Of a DNA stretch of 61,901 nucleotides, positions 655-9,138 are shown one piece after another (position 1 is the stretch's first letter; each line of letters opens with the position of its first letter). A program made the position numbers and the translations under genes. Location of the stretch: the IMG/VR virus record IMGVR_UViG_3300017960_000670, positions 1 through 61,901 of that record, one strand, 5' to 3'. The notes beneath the pieces were generated by a model. That model made no database searches and had not been told where the DNA came from. It was given only the letters and a program-made list of their open reading frames with translations. The DNA is from a virus.

Positions 655-1182
655 TTAATGATGACTGATTTTCAAGTGAAGGACATTATCAAAGATGCCG
701 CCATGCTCCATTACACAAAAGTAGTCACCATCTTCATCTCCATATTCGAAATGGAAAAAATCAAAATTGGGATACTGTTTTCTAAACATCAACATACAAT
801 TCATTCCCCGTTTTTTAACTTCAATTTCATATTGATCCCAATCGCAATATTCCCATCCCCCGTCCTTTTTAGGTTTCTTAAAATCATCATACTTAATCTC
901 TTTTGGAAAAGATACCTTTCCAGTGCAATCCCAACCACCAAAGTGTTCAAGTTCATTTGCTATTTCTGCATCAGTCATCGGCTTGGCTTTTTGCAAATCA
1001 TCCCAAACCGTTTTCGCAGCTTGGTCAGTTTGAATAGTTTTGTCGTAAATGGAAATTTGCTTGTCGTTTCCAAAAAGCAAGTCCTGAATCTTCTCTACTG
1101 ACTTTGGAAGCTTGCCTTTTTCAAAGCCAACAATGAAACCGCTACTTGAACTGTTGCTGACAAATCCAATTCGGACTTTCAT
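655..1182 (-). CDS. shared-leader family protein 1 (VSNSSSSGF)
   Basis: A 175-residue protein beginning MKVRIGFVSNSSSSGF, one of ten proteins here with this N-terminal signature. I start it at the ATG that opens the signature: the frame extends 26 codons upstream, but that part overlaps the neighbour and has no counterpart in the family. The body is rich in Asp, Lys and aromatic residues with no domain I can name. This copy alone has Gly in place of the last Ser of the serine run. Confidence 0.9.
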   Translation of the reverse strand: MKVRIGFVSNSSSSGFIVGFEKGKLPKSVEKIQDLLFGNDKQISIYDKTIQTDQAAKTVWDDLQKAKPMTDAEIANELEHFGGWDCTGKVSFPKEIKYDDFKKPKKDGGWEYCDWDQYEIEVKKRGMNCMLMFRKQYPNFDFFHFEYGDEDGDYFCVMEHGGIFDNVLHLKISHH

Positions 1183-1186
1183 TTTG

Positions 1187-1588
1187 CTATCCTTCTCCCC
1201 ATTCAAATACTTTGTCTTTTTCTTTTCTGAGTTCTTCCTGCCATTTTTCCACCGCATCATAGCCGGTCATCAAGTCGCCATATTCCCCATCTGGCCGTTT
1301 TTGCTTGCCCTTGTTTTCATCGTCGTCATCAAGCTCGCTGTCCCATTTCCCATCAATGGTATCATCAAACTCATCACCCATAGTGATAGGGCCGTACCCT
1401 TGAACGCTCAAATCGCCAAAATAAACGACGTCTTGTCCAAGGAATTTCTCATACTTGATGACTTGGTTTACAACGTCTTGAACATATGGATGAAGAGCCT
1501 TCATCGCACGCTCGTGATTCTCTTTTGACGTCACGATAACAAAACTGCTGGAGCTACTGTTGCTCACAAAACCATTTCTTGTTTTCAT
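1187..1588 (-). CDS. shared-leader family protein 2 (VSNSSSSSF)
   Basis: A 133-residue protein beginning MKTRNGFVSNSSSSSF. The body has an acidic middle stretch (ELDDDDENKG) and a charged helical tail. I see no catalytic motif and no similarity to the neighbouring bodies beyond the leader. The start is set by the leader; five codons upstream are open but unsupported. Four bases separate its stop from the next start. Confidence 0.88.
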   Translation of the reverse strand: MKTRNGFVSNSSSSSFVIVTSKENHERAMKALHPYVQDVVNQVIKYEKFLGQDVVYFGDLSVQGYGPITMGDEFDDTIDGKWDSELDDDDENKGKQKRPDGEYGDLMTGYDAVEKWQEELRKEKDKVFEWGEG

Positions 1589-1589
1589 C

Positions 1590-1976
1590 CTAATGTCCCT
1601 CAAATCTGATTACAAGAGTAGGAGTTTTGACTTCAAACGCGTCCCCGTCACTGTACAAATATTCGTCAAGTGATTCTCCGCTTTCGTTGCTCACCCTGAT
1701 TGTTCTTATCTTACCAAATTTCTTGAACAAATCTGCGTGCGGCAATTCTTCATCATCGTCATAGCAATGATACTTACGATAAGCCTTTTCTGTTTTCCAA
1801 ACATCACCACCAAGAAGCAGCGCAATCACGTTTTCCGCAAAAGAACGCAATGGGCCTTTTTTCGGCGTTTGGAAAACCTTATGAAGTTTTCTCTCCAATG
1901 CCTTATCATCACCCTTCCATGCGATGATAAAACTACTTGAAGAACTGTTGCTCACAAACCCGCTGCGCGTCTTCAT
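1590..1976 (-). CDS. shared-leader family protein 3 (VSNSSSSSF)
   Basis: A 128-residue protein beginning MKTRSGFVSNSSSSSF. The leader runs into a hydrophobic IIAW segment and then a Lys-rich helix. A short hydrophobic patch (VIALLLGG, about residues 50-57) is too short for a membrane span. Function unknown. It is separated from its neighbours by one base on one side and nine on the other, consistent with one operon. Confidence 0.88.
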   Translation of the reverse strand: MKTRSGFVSNSSSSSFIIAWKGDDKALERKLHKVFQTPKKGPLRSFAENVIALLLGGDVWKTEKAYRKYHCYDDDEELPHADLFKKFGKIRTIRVSNESGESLDEYLYSDGDAFEVKTPTLVIRFEGH

Positions 1977-1985
1977 CTTTTTCTC

Positions 1986-2369
1986 CTATCCATTGTACCA
2001 CGATACCTCATGTATTGCAAACGTTTGATTTCCGAGCATTTCTTTAACCACTGTCCGAACATTCTCTTTGAACTGAGCGCCTGTTTCATCGTCTTTAATG
2101 CCCGTCCATGAACGGCCAATGTAAACAGTCTCAAATTCAGGAGGCTGATGCATTGAAAAATCGTCAGGCAATTTGATACCTTCCGATATTTCATAGACGC
2201 CCCAACTTTCTTCAAGCTCTTCTGGCGTCTTTCCTTCTTTGTCAGCCAACTCTTTCAGCGTTTGTTGATACGCTTTTGTCTTCTTGAATTCGCTTGTATC
2301 AAGGGAAACTCCGAAAATGCAAAAGCTACTTGAACTGCTGTTGCTTACAAACCCACTTCTGATCTTCAT
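1986..2369 (-). CDS. shared-leader family protein 4 (VSNSSSSSF)
   Basis: A 127-residue protein beginning MKIRSGFVSNSSSSSF. Its end, a helix then LG and a strand ending in SWYNG, resembles the ends of the family members at 3841 and 8758 (strand then YGE). These may therefore share a C-terminal domain. That similarity is weak and read by eye. No catalytic residues are recognisable. Confidence 0.88.
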   Translation of the reverse strand: MKIRSGFVSNSSSSSFCIFGVSLDTSEFKKTKAYQQTLKELADKEGKTPEELEESWGVYEISEGIKLPDDFSMHQPPEFETVYIGRSWTGIKDDETGAQFKENVRTVVKEMLGNQTFAIHEVSWYNG

Positions 2370-2381
2370 TTGCTTTTCTCC

Positions 2382-2900
2382 TTAACTGGCACAAGTCCCT
2401 ACGAAAAGCTTGATCTGCTCCTCATCTGAAAGGCCAAGCCTGCTGCGCAAATCTTTAAGCTTTCCAAAAATGTCCTCCAAATCACACTCGCATTCCGCGC
2501 TATCGCCGTCGTCGCTCCAGCAAGCAGCTTCAATTCCAACCACTGTCTTGCCGTTTGGCGCTCCGTCATCGTCGTCGTCCCTAATCGTGAAACCGTCGCC
2601 CGTTCCGCGTTTTTCATAATAGTAATCAGAAAGTTCATCAGCGAACTTGTCTTCAGCATGTTTGAAACTATCAACCCAAGTTGGTTTTCCACACTCCGGA
2701 CAAAACCTTGCCCCTTTGGTTTCTGGATGAACACAACCACGCTTTTTCTCGGAAGGCTCCTTTTTTGGGAAATCCGATTCGTTTCCCCAAACCGCTTCCA
2801 TAATTTTTTCCCGCGAGAACATCTTGTTGTCGATTCCGTAACCAACGACGACAAAACTTGACGTGCTTGAATTTGATACCATTCCGAGTCTGATTTTCAT
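2382..2900 (-). CDS. shared-leader family protein 5, zinc-ribbon body
   Basis: A 172-residue protein beginning MKIRLGMVSNSSTSSF, with Met in place of the usual Phe and one Thr in the serine run. The body has a Cys/His cluster, CVHPETKG then FCPECGK, which should bind one zinc. The member at 3841 has the same arrangement (CEHG then YCPQCG), so these two bodies are related. An acidic DDDDD run follows. The first ATG upstream is eight codons earlier; I prefer the ATG that opens the leader. Confidence 0.9.
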   Translation of the reverse strand: MKIRLGMVSNSSTSSFVVVGYGIDNKMFSREKIMEAVWGNESDFPKKEPSEKKRGCVHPETKGARFCPECGKPTWVDSFKHAEDKFADELSDYYYEKRGTGDGFTIRDDDDDGAPNGKTVVGIEAACWSDDGDSAECECDLEDIFGKLKDLRSRLGLSDEEQIKLFVGTCAS

Positions 2901-3313
2901 TTCTTCATCTTCCTTTCTGCCCATTCCTTCAGTTTTTTGAAATGCGCCTTCCCATCAGGCGTTTTGTAAAGCTTCATCATGCGCTCTGCTTTTTCAAACT
3001 CCATCCATTCCTGCGCCATGAAATGTTCCATTCTTCTTTTGCGCTCTGCTTTTGTTTCAGGACTCTTTCCCCGCAAAACCAACTGTGATTTCATGTGCCC
3101 AAACTCATCTACTTCAACGTGCCGAAGTTCAAACCACAATTCTTTGAAAATCTTTTTCTTTTTTGCTTTCTTCACTTCTTTATTCAGCCATTTGCGAAGG
3201 CTTTCAACACTTCCTTCATCCATAGTACAATTACCGTGAAAGTCTTCATCCCAAAAAGTCGCTAAGTCCCTATCGACAACTTCAGACGTTTCATACCACC
3301 ATTTTTTAGCCAT
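2897..3313 (-). CDS. hypothetical basic helical protein
   Basis: A 138-residue protein very rich in Lys, Glu and Trp, predicted mostly helical, with runs such as KKAKKKKIFKE. It has no leader signature and no motif I recognise. Its stop overlaps the start of the preceding family member by four bases (ATGA) and its own start overlaps the HD hydrolase gene by eight, so translation is probably coupled. Confidence 0.82.
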   Translation of the reverse strand: MAKKWWYETSEVVDRDLATFWDEDFHGNCTMDEGSVESLRKWLNKEVKKAKKKKIFKELWFELRHVEVDEFGHMKSQLVLRGKSPETKAERKRRMEHFMAQEWMEFEKAERMMKLYKTPDGKAHFKKLKEWAERKMKK

Positions 3314-3848
3314 TTTCTTTTACCCTCTCTTCTTGTTTTTCGATTTCTTTCATCAGCTCATGGTATAGTTTTTCGTCTGCGTCTCCCAACACATCAGCAA
3401 GCAAACGTGATTCCTCAAGGTACAACTTTACAAAGCCCCTGTCGGTTTCAAGAGCATCGCCAAAGTCAGATATATTGTCAAGCCGATCATGCATCTTAAT
3501 TATCTTTGCTTCGCGAGAAACCGTTCTCAGAAAATCCCTGTCCATTTGTTTTCTTTTTGCTCTGGGCAAATCTGTATGATTTTTAGAAGGATTTGTCAAT
3601 TGAAGCACCAAAGAAGAAACAATCCCTCCAAACTTCTCGCGCAACTGTTTTGACGTTATCTTTGTATCTTCCAAAACGTCATGCAACATAGCAGCCGCAA
3701 TCATCGTTTCGCTCGAATCTGCCCGCTCAGCAACCTTTGCCCCAACGTTCATAGGGTGTCGAGCATACATCTCATTTGTATACTTTCGCCGTTGCCCTTT
3801 ATGAGCAGCATAGACAAAAGCCTCAACCTCTTTCAAAAACTCATCCAT
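3306..3848 (-). CDS. HD-domain (p)ppGpp hydrolase-like protein (MESH1/SpoT type)
   Basis: A compact 180-residue HD phosphohydrolase of the RelA/SpoT hydrolase class. Visible residues are ARHP (His 31), LHDVLEDT (His-Asp 56-57, Glu-Asp 60-61) and KMHDRLDN (Asp 121, Asn 125), the set that binds manganese in SpoT and MESH1. There is no synthetase or regulatory domain. In this family the reaction removes pyrophosphate from ppGpp; MESH1 also acts on NADPH. A phage copy would be expected to blunt the stringent response. An upstream start at 3875 is possible but deepens the overlap with the next gene. Confidence 0.82.
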   Translation of the reverse strand: MDEFLKEVEAFVYAAHKGQRRKYTNEMYARHPMNVGAKVAERADSSETMIAAAMLHDVLEDTKITSKQLREKFGGIVSSLVLQLTNPSKNHTDLPRAKRKQMDRDFLRTVSREAKIIKMHDRLDNISDFGDALETDRGFVKLYLEESRLLADVLGDADEKLYHELMKEIEKQEERVKENG

Positions 3849-4272
3849 TGCCCGCTTCCCCGTAGAAAAATCCAAGCTGCTTTGAAGGAATCTTGACGCC
3901 CAATTTTTTCTCTGCTATTTCCTGAACGTGCTTACAAGCTTGGGGAATAGTCATTTTCTTCAAAAGCTCTTCTGCATCCAAACCCGCATAATCAACGTCC
4001 TCTGAACCATAATAGGAAAATACTTTTCCCTGAGCGCTTCCATAAGCAAGTTCAGGATACGTGAAATCCTCAGCATTGCTAAATTCAAATCCACATTGAG
4101 GACAATACTTCGTTTTCTTGTTTGGTCTTCCGTGCTCGCAAACTTTTTCTTCATAGTGTTCCGTTTTGTAAAGCCCTTCCTTCTTTGCCAGCACTCTTGA
4201 CCAGTTGGAAGTACCAATGATGCAAAAACTTGAACTGGAACTGTTGGAAACAAAACCCGTTCTTGTCTTCAT
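3841..4272 (-). CDS. shared-leader family protein 6, zinc-ribbon body
   Basis: A 143-residue protein beginning MKTRTGFVSNSSSSSF. It has a zinc-ribbon-like cluster CEHG then YCPQCG (about residues 46-63). The C-terminal half has DYAGLDAEELL and ends FFYGEAGNG, which lines up with YYAGL and HYGECSS in the member at 8758. The body is therefore homologous to at least one other family body, not only in the leader. Start and stop overlap both neighbours. Confidence 0.9.
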   Translation of the reverse strand: MKTRTGFVSNSSSSSFCIIGTSNWSRVLAKKEGLYKTEHYEEKVCEHGRPNKKTKYCPQCGFEFSNAEDFTYPELAYGSAQGKVFSYYGSEDVDYAGLDAEELLKKMTIPQACKHVQEIAEKKLGVKIPSKQLGFFYGEAGNG

Positions 4273-4568
4273 GATTCATCCCTCACCACAAAGGCTTCAC
4301 TATTAATTCCAAGCCATTTGAAAAACTTTTCCGTATCTCCGTTGTCGCAACGGATTTCTCCTTTGATCATTGGATAATCATCTTCTACATCGTCCCAGTC
4401 GTCATGAAAGATTCCTTCTTGATCCATCCATTCTGATTTGAAGCCATGTTCCCTTGCATATTCAGTATGATTCAAGATAGCTCGCTTTTGCCGTTCATTG
4501 ATCATCGGAATCCAAACAACAAATGAAGCCGAACTACTATTGGAAACAAACCCTGCTCGCAATTTCAT
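4269..4568 (-). CDS. shared-leader family protein 7 (VSNSSSASF)
   Basis: A 99-residue protein beginning MKLRAGFVSNSSSASF. The body matches the member at 5212: both have Q-x-KAIL or QKRAIL soon after the leader, then DNG-x-x-E-x-F and a closing aromatic strand. These two are true paralogues. The open frame extends 26 codons upstream, but only inside the neighbour. The stop overlaps the next start by ATGA. Confidence 0.88.
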   Translation of the reverse strand: MKLRAGFVSNSSSASFVVWIPMINERQKRAILNHTEYAREHGFKSEWMDQEGIFHDDWDDVEDDYPMIKGEIRCDNGDTEKFFKWLGINSEAFVVRDES

Positions 4569-5203
4569 GTCGACTCCTTGTGAACAATGACTGCCTTCCC
4601 CATGTTCACTAACCTCTCTGCTGCATCTGTAATGCCGACGCCCCAACTATTTTCTTCTTCAAATGAAACCATTTTCCATTTCTTGTCGTTATACGGTTCA
4701 ACAGCTTTCAAACGTTCCCACAACTTCTCAATCTTTTTGCTCAATTCAGTAAGCCCTGAATCATAACGCTCAAGTTCATTCTTGACCAATCTGTTGAAAG
4801 GCTTTCGTCGAGAATCATATTGTTTGAGCGTTACTTCTTGAAGTATTCCTTCCGGACCTTCTTTTTGAAACTCCCGTTGCTTCTTTCTACTTTGCAATTC
4901 CAAAACCAACTCTGCACCACGTCGTGCTTCTTTGTTTTTAATAATCGCTTTGAATTCTTTGAGTTCTTTCTCGCAAACTTCTTTGCTCTTTTGAAGCCCT
5001 TCGAGTTCGCGCATCAATGTCTCGCGGTATTCAGAAATCTTTCCTGCGTGCCACTTTACATTGTCCATTTTTCCATGCGTCAACGATCCAACGACGAATT
5101 CTAATTGTCCAAACCAATCCTCACCCTCGGCACCGCTATTTTTAACGACGATGATAAAGCTACTGGTTGAACTGTTGCTTACAAATCCACTGCGCGCTTT
5201 CAT
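4565..5203 (-). CDS. shared-leader family protein 8, coiled-coil body
   Basis: A 212-residue protein beginning MKARSGFVSNSSTSSF and the longest of the family. Residues about 55-165 are rich in Glu, Lys and Leu with heptad-like spacing and should form a long coiled coil. A short C-terminal segment (VGITDAAERLVNMG) follows. The leader here is attached to a quite different fold from the zinc-ribbon members. No enzyme motif is visible. Confidence 0.88.
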   Translation of the reverse strand: MKARSGFVSNSSTSSFIIVVKNSGAEGEDWFGQLEFVVGSLTHGKMDNVKWHAGKISEYRETLMRELEGLQKSKEVCEKELKEFKAIIKNKEARRGAELVLELQSRKKQREFQKEGPEGILQEVTLKQYDSRRKPFNRLVKNELERYDSGLTELSKKIEKLWERLKAVEPYNDKKWKMVSFEEENSWGVGITDAAERLVNMGKAVIVHKEST

Positions 5204-5211
5204 CCTACACC

Positions 5212-5523
5212 TCAATTGTGATCAATAATCTTGTAAGCCTTTTTCTTGACTCCCAAGGCTTTCAGAAAGATTTCCATTTCTCCGTTATCCATCCACGTAC
5301 TTCCAACAATCCGTTCTCCATTTTTTGTCTCAGACAACTCCCAACTGTCGCCAAATCCAAGACGGCCACCGTTAAAATCTGGAAAAGCGTTCAACCGAAC
5401 AAACTCTTCCCCAAACCGTTTGTAATCCAGAATGGCTTTGACTTGCCAATCAGTGAGCATATCCTTACGCACCCAAAAGGATGCTGAACTCGAATTTGAA
5501 ACGTAGCCCAATCTAATTTTCAT
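5212..5523 (-). CDS. shared-leader family protein 9 (VSNSSSASF)
   Basis: A 103-residue protein beginning MKIRLGYVSNSSSASF, with Tyr in place of Phe at position 7. The body is paralogous to that of the protein at 4269 (KAIL near residue 30, WMDNGEMEIF near 80). Its start overlaps the end of the preceding gene by 11 bases. Function unknown. Confidence 0.88.
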   Translation of the reverse strand: MKIRLGYVSNSSSASFWVRKDMLTDWQVKAILDYKRFGEEFVRLNAFPDFNGGRLGFGDSWELSETKNGERIVGSTWMDNGEMEIFLKALGVKKKAYKIIDHN

Positions 5524-5854
5524 CGTCATCCTCAAAAGCTTCTTTGATTTTGTCCCATATATAATAGTTACCGTTTATATGAACGCCTTGCTCATAGTGT
5601 TGAATCGTGTCAAGAACGTTTCCGGTGCTTGCATCGCCTTGATTAAGGAGTAATTTCAAAACACTGACCGCGAAACGGTCTGGATCAGCATCAAAGTTTT
5701 TTGTGAATTCGTCCTTGCTGTCCCAAAGTTGTGTTGAGTGGTTGAAATCATCATACGTACAGATTCCATAATAACGCCTATCGCCAGACCGTTCTGATAA
5801 GTCATCGCTAAGCTCAATGACTCGTTGAAACTGAATATACGCTCTATTTCCCAT
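5513..5854 (-). CDS. hypothetical protein
   Basis: A 113-residue protein starting MGNRAYIQFQ with an acidic tail (EDDDEN). I start it at the ATG eleven bases inside the preceding gene rather than 28 codons further upstream, which would bury it deep in that gene. The composition is that of a small alpha/beta protein. I do not recognise a family. Confidence 0.78.
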   Translation of the reverse strand: MGNRAYIQFQRVIELSDDLSERSGDRRYYGICTYDDFNHSTQLWDSKDEFTKNFDADPDRFAVSVLKLLLNQGDASTGNVLDTIQHYEQGVHINGNYYIWDKIKEAFEDDDEN

Positions 5855-6335
5855 TTCTTGCAACCCTGTCTTCAGGTTTTCCGAGCAGCACGATAGCCCA
5901 CGTTTTAGTAAGTGGAGGCCATTGAAGCGGTCTGCCAACCGCTTTCATCATTGCTGTAATATCAGCCCCTTGACCTTCAGGCGTAGCATAAATCACCGTA
6001 AACGGTGCTGCTATTGCCTGCTTGAGAAATCCTCTCAACTCTTTTCTCAAAGTGCCCTGCCAATACAAAAGGCAGCGACACTGCCTGTCCGTCCACGAAG
6101 CATGCTTTTTCTTCATCTCAGACGCCCAACGCCCAATATCAAATGCGACGCCGATCATCATAACCGTTGCGCCTTCTTTCATCAAAGGAACGTTTGGCGG
6201 GCACCGTTTCTTCTTTCCAAAGTTTGGACAGCCTTTCTTATGACCGGGATAAGGCAACGCGCACCAAGTCCCGTTTGCTTTCTTGTTGATAATGACCTGT
6301 GTTTCAGCCGTAAATTTATCAATAATGTAATTCAT
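5844..6335 (-). CDS. DUF2284-like cysteine-rich metal-binding protein
   Basis: A 163-residue protein whose N-terminal part carries C-x8-CPNFGKKKRCPPN (about residues 25-48). This resembles the C..CPxYG...CPP signature of DUF2284 predicted metal-binding proteins. The remainder is alpha/beta with two more cysteines (QCRCLLYW). In that family the cysteines are thought to hold a metal or Fe-S cluster; the reaction is unknown. The assignment rests on that signature only. Confidence 0.65.
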   Translation of the reverse strand: MNYIIDKFTAETQVIINKKANGTWCALPYPGHKKGCPNFGKKKRCPPNVPLMKEGATVMMIGVAFDIGRWASEMKKKHASWTDRQCRCLLYWQGTLRKELRGFLKQAIAAPFTVIYATPEGQGADITAMMKAVGRPLQWPPLTKTWAIVLLGKPEDRVARNGK

Positions 6336-6559
6336 CTTGGTTGAACTTTCTCCAAATGCTGAAACGTTTCCTCATCGCCTTTCGCCAATGCAAGTTCCTT
6401 TTCGTATTTCCGCAACGTTGCCTCATAACGCCGAAGCAGTCCTTTTGCATGATCCATATCGGGCACTCTGGGATGCGAATTGTCACCCCAAAGCTCCTTC
6501 CTGTCTTCTTCCGTCAGCACCGATGCATTGATCCACCTATTCGGCCAATCGGGGAGCAT
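6332..6559 (-). CDS. small hypothetical protein
   Basis: A 75-residue protein beginning MLPDWPNRWINASV and ending in a charged helix. The chosen ATG has GGAGAAAG upstream and overlaps the preceding small zinc-ribbon gene by 23 bases. The stop overlaps the next start by ATGA. The WINAS segment resembles phage and bacterial proteins of unknown role, so no function is given. Confidence 0.72.
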   Translation of the reverse strand: MLPDWPNRWINASVLTEEDRKELWGDNSHPRVPDMDHAKGLLRRYEATLRKYEKELALAKGDEETFQHLEKVQPR

Positions 6560-6776
6560 TTTCTTTCTCCAGCAAAGGGTTTGGTATCCGTTTCTTACAA
6601 TCAGCACAAACAACAGATTTTGGAAACGGCTGATGCTTCATCTTGTCCAAGTTGGTGCTTTCAATTTTACCACCCCAATCATACCAAGTTTCCCACCAGC
6701 CACAAACATACTCGTTCATTATGAAACCGGATTTGCCGCCGCACTTCGGACAAGTTGGTTTTTCTTTCTCTTCCAT
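6537..6776 (-). CDS. small zinc-ribbon protein
   Basis: A 79-residue protein with CPKCG at residues 9-13 and CADC near 57-60, a two-knuckle zinc ribbon, joined by a Trp-rich loop (CGWWETWYDWGG). It probably binds one zinc and could contact nucleic acid or protein. It sits in a run of small overlapping genes below the radical SAM gene. Confidence 0.78.
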   Translation of the reverse strand: MEEKEKPTCPKCGGKSGFIMNEYVCGWWETWYDWGGKIESTNLDKMKHQPFPKSVVCADCKKRIPNPLLEKENAPRLAE

Positions 6777-6785
6777 GTTGTAACC

Positions 6786-7250
6786 TCACATAAGACCGAT
6801 TTTGTAAAAGGCTCGATAAGCAGCAATACAACACTGGTACGGCTCAAACAATCTGAAATTGAAACACTCTTCTCCGGAAAACGGTTGGCGCGTGTAATAG
6901 TTGTGAAGCATATTTCTCAATTCTCGAATATACCACCCAACCTTTACATGCCCCGTTGTTTTGATTTTCTTGTCCATTTCAAAAACGTCTTTTTGATTGG
7001 TCAATGGGTCGGGACAATCGTCTACAAAAACCCAGCCCATATCCACTGTCTTGAAAGCATAAACTTCCATACTGTTTCTTTGAAACAACTCTTCCTTGTA
7101 CTTCCATGTTTGCTTTCCAATGCGTTTTGTTTTCACAGCGTCATTTTGAACAATGGTCATATTCCAAAACCAAACCAACAAGATTACACGAAGCTCCCCT
7201 TTTTCTTCGGGAGTCCATTCTTCAAACGGTTGGTCAATGTCAAATTTCAT
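6786..7250 (-). CDS. hypothetical protein
   Basis: A 154-residue soluble protein rich in aromatic residues, with scattered cysteines and no signal or membrane segment. Not recognised. Its ribosome binding site (AAAGGCG) lies inside a perfect small hairpin at 7257-7271, so translation may be controlled by RNA structure. Confidence 0.78.
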   Translation of the reverse strand: MKFDIDQPFEEWTPEEKGELRVILLVWFWNMTIVQNDAVKTKRIGKQTWKYKEELFQRNSMEVYAFKTVDMGWVFVDDCPDPLTNQKDVFEMDKKIKTTGHVKVGWYIRELRNMLHNYYTRQPFSGEECFNFRLFEPYQCCIAAYRAFYKIGLM

Positions 7251-7256
7251 ATTTTC

Positions 7257-7271
7257 GCCTTTGTCAAAGGC
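7257..7271 (-). promoter_or_regulatory. hairpin covering a ribosome binding site
   Basis: The sequence GCCTTTGACAAAGGC is a perfect inverted repeat (6 bp stem, 3-base loop). Its 3' arm supplies the only purine-rich ribosome binding site for the gene starting at 7250. There is no T-run, so translation control is more likely than termination. Confidence 0.4.
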
Positions 7272-7290
7272 GTAGAGGCTTCTAAACTAC

Positions 7291-8433
7291 TTAACCTTTC
7301 AAATCATACGTCACACAATGGCGGCAACCGTCTCTCATCGAGTTTAACACGCGCTGGCGAAATTTAATAACTGCTGGACTGAACCAAACGTCCTTGAGGA
7401 AGTCGTTGCACTCAAGAACGTTCACGCATTCAACATTTGGCTCGTCTTCAGAAAATGAACAGTGCCAATACTCGCCCTTGACGTTGATGTATGCCGAAAA
7501 CAGCGAAGATTCACAAGACTCCGACATCGACAATAGAACTTTCCTGCGCTCTTCACTCATCTCGCGCTCTTTCACAGCTTGTTCGAACTTCGGCGCTGAA
7601 CAAGAATCAAACCCGAACCGCAAATCATTTTCAAAACAGTAGTTGATCAAATCCGCATACTGTTCTGAAGTGAGCGAATGAAATTGTCCCTTGGCTCTGC
7701 CTTTTGGTTTGACCCCGAGAAACACGATAGCATTGAGCTTTTCAAGCCGTGAATCAGTTTTGCTATCGCGCAATACTTCATAAACGAAGTCAAGCGTCTC
7801 TTGGCTGGCCATTAGATGAATGTTGGTCTGCTTCACACCGCGATCTGAGAACATCTTCACAGTGTTGTAGCCGACATTCTTGTCTGTCTTGTAAACGCTG
7901 ACCGCCAAGCCGCCAACCAACGGCGCGATTTCATCAGCCAGTTTCGGCGTCAAGTCAATTCCTGAAAGCGTGAAGTTTGGAATCACACCACGCTTGCGGG
8001 ATTCTTTCAGCATTGGAATGAAATCTGGGTTTGTCTGGACGCCCGTAATCCCAAACGCAATTTGCGTAAGGGTCATCGGCATTTTGTCCATGAGCGTTTT
8101 GAACTGCCCCAGCGTCATATTAGTCGCTGGGACATCCTGATTGCTCTTGTAACAGAATTTGCATGCGTTTGGACATCCATTGACTGAAATTTCCAAGTCG
8201 AGAATTTCAGGCCCAATGGGGCTGAATTCTGGATCATCCTTCGGCGTCTTTCCCCAACGCGCAAAGAAGCCGGTCTTTTTGTCGAAGATGTAATGGTAGT
8301 CACACGGTGACATAATCGTTTTTGCCGTGTTGGTTTCAACGACTGTGTAAGGATCGCCCCCTCTGAACGACACGCCGCCAAGATTGAAGATTTCTTCCCC
8401 TTCGCCAATGAAATACGTTTTTCGCCGTTTCAT
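7291..8433 (-). CDS. radical SAM enzyme with C-terminal cysteine cluster
   Basis: A 380-residue radical SAM protein. The CPNACKFC motif at 87-94 supplies the three cysteines (87, 91, 94) that hold the SAM-binding 4Fe-4S cluster, preceded by an LEISVNG strand. Four or more C-terminal cysteines (CESS, WHCSF, GCRHC) suggest a second, SPASM-like cluster region, as in peptide-modifying members. It overlaps the preceding gene by ATGA. It is embedded in the shared-leader block, so modification of those proteins is possible, but nothing in the sequence shows the substrate. Confidence 0.88.
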   Translation of the reverse strand: MKRRKTYFIGEGEEIFNLGGVSFRGGDPYTVVETNTAKTIMSPCDYHYIFDKKTGFFARWGKTPKDDPEFSPIGPEILDLEISVNGCPNACKFCYKSNQDVPATNMTLGQFKTLMDKMPMTLTQIAFGITGVQTNPDFIPMLKESRKRGVIPNFTLSGIDLTPKLADEIAPLVGGLAVSVYKTDKNVGYNTVKMFSDRGVKQTNIHLMASQETLDFVYEVLRDSKTDSRLEKLNAIVFLGVKPKGRAKGQFHSLTSEQYADLINYCFENDLRFGFDSCSAPKFEQAVKEREMSEERRKVLLSMSESCESSLFSAYINVKGEYWHCSFSEDEPNVECVNVLECNDFLKDVWFSPAVIKFRQRVLNSMRDGCRHCVTYDLKG

Positions 8434-8747
8434 CGTTTCTTCCTTTTCTTTTTGGCTTTCTTCTTTTGTTCGGCTTTACACCACGGTTTTAGTCCACCTG
8501 CTCTGTCAACAATTTGATTTTGTGCTATACTGTAAAATCTTTCAATCTCGTATTCGACGTCTTTTAACCGCTGGCCAAACTTCTCAAGTTCAATGATCGA
8601 AACCACTTGGTCAGCGTCAAACTCTGATTTGTCCCGAAGTATTTCGTTCAACTTTTTGTACAAACGGCAACGCACGCGCCCAACATTTCTTCGCGCAACC
8701 TCAAAACATTTTCGGTCACCTTCCGTCAGTTTCACTCTGGGCAGCAT
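8430..8747 (-). CDS. hypothetical basic protein
   Basis: A 105-residue helical protein with a very basic tail (KKKAKKKRKKR), suggesting nucleic-acid contact. I use the ATG at 8747, which has AAGGGG six bases upstream and leaves a ten-base gap from the preceding stop. An ATG ten codons earlier overlaps that gene and has no ribosome binding site. Its stop overlaps the radical SAM start. Confidence 0.75.
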   Translation of the reverse strand: MLPRVKLTEGDRKCFEVARRNVGRVRCRLYKKLNEILRDKSEFDADQVVSIIELEKFGQRLKDVEYEIERFYSIAQNQIVDRAGGLKPWCKAEQKKKAKKKRKKR

Positions 8748-8757
8748 CGCTTTCCCC

Positions 8758-9138
8758 TTAACTACTGCATTCACCATAGTGCAAAGTCACATGATGTTTC
8801 CGGACATCAAGCGGCACGTTCAAACTGTTTTGACAAATCCTTGCAAACCTTTTTATCAACTGCTGAACTGTCTCCCCGTCGCACAATTCTTCATGACAAC
8901 TCAAGCCAGCATAATACGGTTGGTTGTCGTATCCAAAAAAGTCCAAGTGTACGCCTTCGTGCGTTCCGTAGCTCATATAGAAATCATCGTCCTCGAAAAC
9001 GATCCCATTGTTCGGACTGTATTCACAACCAACGCCTTCTGCATTGAGAAGTTTTGTAATCAGCTCTTGGCTGTCGGTTCCAACAATCAGAAAACTACTT
9101 GACGAACTGTTGCTCACAAAACCAATACGCACCTTCAT
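8758..9138 (-). CDS. shared-leader family protein 10 (VSNSSSSSF)
   Basis: A 126-residue protein beginning MKVRIGFVSNSSSSSF and the first gene of its transcription unit, directly under a class A promoter. The C-terminal half (YYAGLSCHEELC to HYGECSS) matches the member at 3841, so it may represent the ancestral body of the family. Clustered acidic residues (FEDDDFY) follow the leader. Function unknown. Confidence 0.9.
   Translation of the reverse strand: MKVRIGFVSNSSSSSFLIVGTDSQELITKLLNAEGVGCEYSPNNGIVFEDDDFYMSYGTHEGVHLDFFGYDNQPYYAGLSCHEELCDGETVQQLIKRFARICQNSLNVPLDVRKHHVTLHYGECSS

Follow-up and report, generated by a model that had tools for sequence, protein, structure and literature searches.

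An N-terminal tag on unrelated phage proteins and the radical-SAM enzyme linked to it: a candidate system of protein modification

A CX3CX2C motif combined with a SPASM or twitch architecture is typical of, although not exclusive to, those radical S-adenosylmethionine (SAM) enzymes that modify peptides. In the radical-SAM/SPASM maturase–precursor pairs of ribosomally synthesised and post-translationally modified peptides (RiPPs), in the style of Haft and Basu (SCIFF/ranthipeptides, mycofactocin, the Nif11 class and WgkB), the enzyme is encoded in linkage with a ribosomal substrate that carries a conserved N-terminal segment. In prochlorosin-type lanthipeptide systems one enzyme serves many substrate genes whose products share a conserved leader and differ downstream, and the anaerobic sulfatase-maturating enzymes (anSMEs, the Ser-type included) are radical-SAM/SPASM enzymes that act on larger folded proteins, altering a serine or cysteine within a short motif. 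Likenesses to each of these can be drawn for a 61.9-kb viral contig of IMG/VR (IMGVR_UViG_3300017960_000670, the whole of which is here called the window), in which ten genes of the minus strand encode proteins that begin with the leader MKxRxG(F/M/Y)VSNSS(S/T)xxF, with a radical-SAM gene in the same array. We consider it probable that this leader, or tag, is portable across unrelated small proteins and is the site at which a dedicated radical-SAM enzyme modifies them.

The ten leaders were described in an earlier note on this DNA, and all of them are present. Each gene starts, at the higher of its two coordinates in Table 1, with an ATG that in most cases has a purine-rich, Shine-Dalgarno-like stretch close upstream, and M1, K2, R4, G6, V8, S9, N10, S11, S12 and F16 are invariant across the ten 16-mers, whose mean pairwise identity is 81%. 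The window carries genes for a DNA polymerase, topoisomerase II, a ligase and UvsX, and thus derives from a large tailed phage. The earlier note also suggested that the string occurs in other phage and bacterial proteins, and the leader is indeed widespread. A scan of viral contigs and GTDB genomes with a degenerate DNA pattern returned at least 119 IMG/VR stretches and 31 GTDB contigs, the latter from Bacillota, Spirochaetes, Verrucomicrobia, Deltaproteobacteria, Sulfuricurvum, Loki- and Heimdallarchaeota (Asgard archaea) and Thermoplasmata. The 455 distinct leader proteins gathered have a median length of 133 residues, and the leader immediately follows the start codon. Beyond the window G6 gives way to S, C, N, K or D, F7 to L, H, Y or W, and S9 to T or A. 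The leader is not a product of chance, since its pattern had no match in 120 unrelated viral loci (1.06 Mb), and because S11 and S12 use all six serine codons (TCN and AGY) among 443 distinct leader DNA sequences, the constraint must act on the protein and not on the DNA. Among the carriers is a 691-residue Dehalococcoidia protein (locus L034, 2376–4451), encoded next to a radical-SAM gene, in which a hydrophobic segment follows the tag at once and which is possibly a membrane or surface protein.

What stands behind the tag is highly diverse. Once the leader is stripped, BLASTP links the ten window proteins in two paralogous pairs only, so that their bodies make up eight families; the earlier note had named one of these pairs (4269/5212, 1.7e-6), and 3841/8758 is paralogous as well (5.6e-6). 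Across the whole collection the bodies fall into about 134 BLAST clusters, and they are all different in 82 of the 100 loci with at least two tagged genes. Profile comparison of the 20 clusters with at least four members joins just two pairs, and among the larger clusters it finds no residue motif common to several body families. Within body families the leader keeps an identity of 79–92%, against 20–39% for the body, and the relatives recovered by body hidden Markov models (HMMs), in which the leader was not used, nearly all bear the leader or a variant of it (G6 to S, C, N or K; S9 to A). AlphaFold2 models built with family alignments, which cover two body families (proteins 655–1182 and 1986–2369), predict confidently folded bodies, with a predicted local distance difference test score (pLDDT) of 89.3 and 88.9 and a predicted template modelling score (pTM) of 0.82 and 0.77, respectively. 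In both, residues 1–10 are disordered (mean pLDDT 49 and 53), and the first strand runs from residue 13 to residue 21. According to these models MKxRxGFVSNSS is a flexible tail in front of a folded body, into which S13–F16 run. Foldseek comparison of both bodies with the PDB, and of one with BFVD, gave nothing at E ≤ 0.001.

These data bear on the alternative that the earlier note had set against its own view, namely that the leader is merely the first strand of one fold common to all bodies. In both models the first strand does open with residues 13–16, and many of the bodies could be remote alpha/beta relatives. We nevertheless regard a common fold as extremely improbable: residues 1–12 lie outside the domain, the body profiles are unlinked but for two pairs, Cys-rich body families begin directly after the tag, and the linkage of the leader to an enzyme would be left unexplained.

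That linkage is seen from both directions. When genes that lie up to 6 kb from a leader and do not themselves encode one are clustered, a radical-SAM family is found in 59 loci and the runner-up family in eight; its window member (7291–8433) lies within the interval 655–9138 treated in the earlier note, which missed it. In many loci the enzyme gene and a leader gene have a few bases in common. Among 80 viral loci picked solely by the enzyme profile, 71 contain a leader that fits the strict pattern, always on the strand of the enzyme; a looser pattern raises this to 76 loci with 336 leaders, every one of which (336/336) is on the enzyme's strand and of the V-type (as opposed to the E-type introduced below). 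Of the nine enzyme loci without a strict leader, six come from records that have a leader at another place, and the other three are short fragments. Conversely, 25 of 50 leader records without a nearby enzyme, RB43 and RB16 among them, have a copy elsewhere (E < 1e-100). In controls, leaders were found in 0 of 120 unrelated loci and the enzyme in 0 of 50 of their records. The association extends to bacterial chromosomes: of 250 Lachnospiraceae genomes, four encode family enzymes, five in total, and next to each of the five is a leader gene, in most cases with the variant MKxRxDFVTNSSSSSF; a search for the leader string matched two of these four genomes and no others. Within this enzyme family (family 1) the SPASM-type and CYQ-type bacterial enzymes are mostly or wholly paired with FVTN, and those of the phage type with FVSN.

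The assignment of the enzyme to the radical-SAM superfamily is based on C87-X3-C91-X2-C94, invariant in 41 relatives, together with profile alignment (PF04055, E = 3e-6; at 28.0 bits this is under the curated cut-off of 29.5). The SPASM/twitch signature CX9-15GX4C is present in the C-terminal half as C307-X12-G320-X4-C325 and is accompanied by the invariant C278 and C373, all conserved among relatives (PF13186, E = 0.003, below cut-off); the bacterial relatives have the full SPASM motif CX2CX5CX3C. The protein corresponds to phrog_7293, a family of unknown function (E = 1.6e-82). No cut-off of a named NCBIfam maturase was reached, either by the window enzyme (best TIGR04317, 28.6 bits against 380) or by the bacterial form (best 71.8 bits against a cut-off of 265), and a PDB sequence search with the enzyme gave 0 matches. 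Five records of large phages have one in-frame stop (TAA, TAG or TGA) inside the radical-SAM match, which may reflect recoding, the end of the frame or an error. The gene is split in two in a frameshift-like manner in the IMG record of RB43 (G041, 92778–93816) and in Citrobacter phage IME-CF2; it is in one piece in RB43 record HE858210, and the splits elsewhere are likely to be sequencing differences.

A second tag class was indicated by a single record in which FETNSSSAHSI stands beside a distant radical-SAM match. Scanning for VFETNSSSTHS returned at least 120 viral stretches, whose proteins have the N-terminus M..xIRxxVFETNSSSTHS[IL]; PDB sequence searches with both leader strings gave 0 matches. 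Among the matches listed, a second enzyme family is present in 97 of 120 FETNSSS loci, and the enzyme–tag pairs are on the same strand in 171 of 171 cases with a median gap of 23 bp. Families 1 and 2 are homologous (hhalign 99.2%, E = 1.4e-19) and their pairing with the tags is orthogonal: loci fetched with enzyme 2 contain E-type (FETN) leaders in 75 of 80 cases, with 171 of 171 on the strand of the enzyme, and V-type leaders in none, and enzyme-1 loci contain the V-type only. Tag sequence and enzyme type thus co-vary, which is the pattern to be expected of an enzyme that reads its tag. The second class, absent from the window, is plentiful in phages (viral contigs L399–L518 and L540–L618); Lak megaphages carry enzyme 2, and so does Microcystis phage Ma-LMM01, where the enzyme is gp128 and the tagged protein gp130 lies nearby (gp128–gp130, L521).

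How might enzyme and tag work together? The 16 residues would be a portable N-terminal modification tag, whose disordered tail MKxRxGFVSNSS would be bound, in each tagged protein, by the radical-SAM enzyme; the latter would most likely modify the invariant FVSNSSSS stretch itself, the Asn-Ser-Ser-Ser core being common to both codes, and a single enzyme could thereby act on many otherwise unrelated small proteins. Serine oxidation, epimerisation and a C–C or C–O cross-link to F7 or F16 are candidate chemistries; with Cys almost absent from the leader, a thioether to Cys is unlikely. The earlier note had taken the leader for a signal of targeting, processing or modification; the evidence supports a signal, and the dedicated radical-SAM partner favours modification over targeting. 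A capsid-targeting or packaging function, with the enzyme linkage incidental, would have a precedent in the T4 internal proteins, unrelated phage proteins that likewise have a short N-terminal sequence in common. That sequence differs from the tag, which has no protease cleavage site, is linked to a radical-SAM gene and also occurs in chromosomes. Cleavage of the gp21 type follows a Glu that ends an N-terminal sequence of about ten residues, and none of the ten window leaders contains one; Sec export calls for a hydrophobic core, which they also lack. Both signals were rejected on these sequence grounds, and with an enzyme linkage that is near obligate we give targeting very little credence.

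Two further alternatives accept the linkage and differ in what is modified. The tag could be a recognition handle only, at which the enzyme docks, as at a RiPP leader, and from which it modifies variable positions of the body. In a genome as many as ten different bodies accompany one enzyme, which is reminiscent of RiPP enzymes that take many cores behind one leader, and the bodies do diverge quickly; they are, however, folded domains of about 130 residues and not short cores, no residue motif is shared between their families, and the best-conserved part, being short and rich in Ser and Asn, does not look like a typical leader, all of which makes a pure handle unlikely. Alternatively, the tagged proteins themselves could go unmodified and act as partners or adaptors that bring the enzyme to other substrates, be it nucleic acid, a small molecule or a host protein. 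Tight linkage shows interaction but is silent on which partner is the substrate; small molecules are the substrates of twitch-type enzymes such as MoaA, and some of the NCBIfam matches are to MoaA-like enzymes. We think adaptors decidedly improbable, given that a disordered tail would not need six near-invariant Ser/Asn residues for binding alone and that supplying one enzyme with many diverse adaptors in each genome would be less economical.

Several observations weigh against modification of the tag by its linked enzyme. The modification itself is something we infer, as are the role of the tag as substrate, the chemistry on the N-S-S-S core and a part in phage–host conflict. The search pattern biases the leader-first sets (the enzyme-first sets are free of this bias), and the IMG/VR loci were not deduplicated. 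Five leader records of more than 100 kb have no match to the enzyme family and may be incomplete or use another enzyme; one of them, of 132 kb, has nine tagged genes. In phages RB16 and KP15 the enzyme lies some 20 kb from the tagged genes, although on the same strand. A few leaderless relatives of bodies exist, in three loci, and enzyme family 2 is devoid of the auxiliary-cluster cysteines, so that the two systems may differ in chemistry.

Set against the described systems, the tag and its enzyme work like radical-SAM maturation of a protein or peptide, yet they lack the size and core of RiPPs and the anSME motif and stay below all NCBIfam maturase cut-offs. The enzyme family has weak HMM similarity to several RiPP maturases, with scores far below the family cut-offs. 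Unlike RiPP precursors, which consist of a leader and a short peptide core, the substrates proposed here are folded proteins of 80–300 residues (two bodies being confidently folded in the models) from dozens of body families, with about ten per phage; there is no short core peptide, and the genes around the tags include no recurrent transporter or peptidase. Prochlorosin-type systems use another enzyme class and have no globular bodies, and in the present case the conserved part resembles a reactive site. In contrast to anSME systems there is no sulfatase, the motif is N-terminal and on many unrelated bodies, and C/S-x-P/A-x-R is absent from leader positions 1–16. In the open-access subset of the literature no account was found of the strings or, for phages or Avs operons, of tag systems with a radical-SAM enzyme, and to our knowledge one tag on dozens of body families with two orthogonal enzyme–tag codes has not been described.

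The system is also present in cultured phages. Enzyme 1 occurs in 172 INPHARED records, mostly of Klebsiella, Enterobacter, Cronobacter, Citrobacter and Escherichia phages, labelled 'radical SAM' or 'hypothetical'. RB16 has two tagged proteins (RB16p106 and RB16p111) and the enzyme RB16p156, KP15 has KP15_97 and KP15_102 with the enzyme KP15_135, and RB43 likewise carries two tagged proteins and the enzyme; RB16 and RB43 are E. coli phages with the system, and Lw1 has the enzyme. In bacteria, tag–enzyme pairs of family 1b adjoin a STAND/NACHT protein at six loci (in Acetatifactor, Lachnobacterium, Sulfuricurvum and Verrucomicrobia), and the tagged gene has the same context in Veillonella (L033 shows it cut by the end of the locus). 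Several STAND/NACHT loci also encode an Avs1a-like metallo-beta-lactamase (MBL) protein (E = 9.3e-68), a further likeness to Avs (AVAST) operons; the matched Avs models, however, include no radical-SAM component or tagged protein, and Avs genes were not seen near the window array. This context suggests a role in phage–host conflict, and the operons may represent an Avs-type system, so far undescribed, of which a protein-modifying enzyme is one component. Seven Avs-like operons, L033 among them, comprise a small gene beside the STAND/NACHT gene, the tagged protein and the radical-SAM enzyme, and L009 (3437–3865) encodes a suspected leaderless paralogue of the Avs-associated tagged protein (weak profile match, 47%, E = 1.9e-4).

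Table 1. The tagged genes and the radical-SAM gene of the window.
Feature	Coordinates	Strand	Length (aa)	Leader	Remarks
Leader protein 1	655..1182	-	175	MKVRIGFVSNSSSSGF	phrog_7397 family; AlphaFold2 model made
Leader protein 2	1187..1588	-	133	MKTRNGFVSNSSSSSF	Body cluster 8, 10 members
Leader protein 3	1590..1976	-	128	MKTRSGFVSNSSSSSF	No relatives of body found
Leader protein 4	1986..2369	-	127	MKIRSGFVSNSSSSSF	Largest body family, 48 members; AlphaFold2 model made
Leader protein 5	2382..2900	-	172	MKIRLGMVSNSSTSSF	Zinc-ribbon-like knuckle; Zn_Ribbon_1 E 0.0066 (below cut-off)
Leader protein 6	3841..4272	-	143	MKTRTGFVSNSSSSSF	Paralogue of 8758-9138 (BLASTP 5.6e-6)
Leader protein 7	4269..4568	-	99	MKLRAGFVSNSSSASF	Paralogue of 5212-5523 (BLASTP 1.7e-6)
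Leader protein 8	4565..5203	-	212	MKARSGFVSNSSTSSF	Probably coiled coil
Leader protein 9	5212..5523	-	103	MKIRLGYVSNSSSASF	Paralogue of 4269-4568
Leader protein 10	8758..9138	-	126	MKVRIGFVSNSSSSSF	Upstream of radical-SAM gene
Radical-SAM protein, twitch/SPASM-type C-terminus	7291..8433	-	380		Proposed leader-modifying enzyme, from motifs and linkage to leaders

Pfam, NCBIfam and PHROGs searches with the ten leader proteins returned only phrog_7397 and weak zinc-ribbon matches. The former, a family of unknown function, matches leader protein 1 over its full length (E = 3.4e-12) and most of the other window leader proteins through the leader. Of the zinc ribbons that the earlier note assigned to 2382 and 3841 the CPxCG knuckles are visible, and the Pfam matches (E = 0.0066 and 0.24) are both below their cut-offs; the coiled coil that it saw in 4565 is suggested by weak SMC-like matches. 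Amid the tagged genes, 3306–3875 encodes an HD_4 (RelA/SpoT-like hydrolase) protein, possibly a phage nucleotide hydrolase of the (p)ppGpp type, and 5844–6335, also within the array, encodes a short DUF2284-like predicted metal-binding protein whose Pfam score exactly equals the cut-off.

The products of modification would act in phage–host conflict, in which phages would deploy arrays of fast-diverging tagged proteins and bacteria their Avs-like defence operons. A broader proposition, for and against which we find the balance even, is that of a post-translational barcode: unrelated, fast-evolving proteins of phages and of some bacteria and archaea would share one tag that a dedicated radical-SAM enzyme turns into a common non-canonical group, with at least two orthogonal codes (FVSNSSS and FETNSSS) on both sides of the conflict. 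If the system works as proposed, a hidden chemistry would be common to thousands of 'hypothetical proteins', be they of phages, megaphages or bacterial defence loci, and the 16-residue string would be a reliable marker of it, radical-SAM chemistry would have a portable, genetically encoded tag on folded proteins instead of peptides, and PHROGs 7293 and 7397, both of unknown function, would acquire a joint and testable role. That cultured E. coli phages have the system makes the question decidable by experiment.

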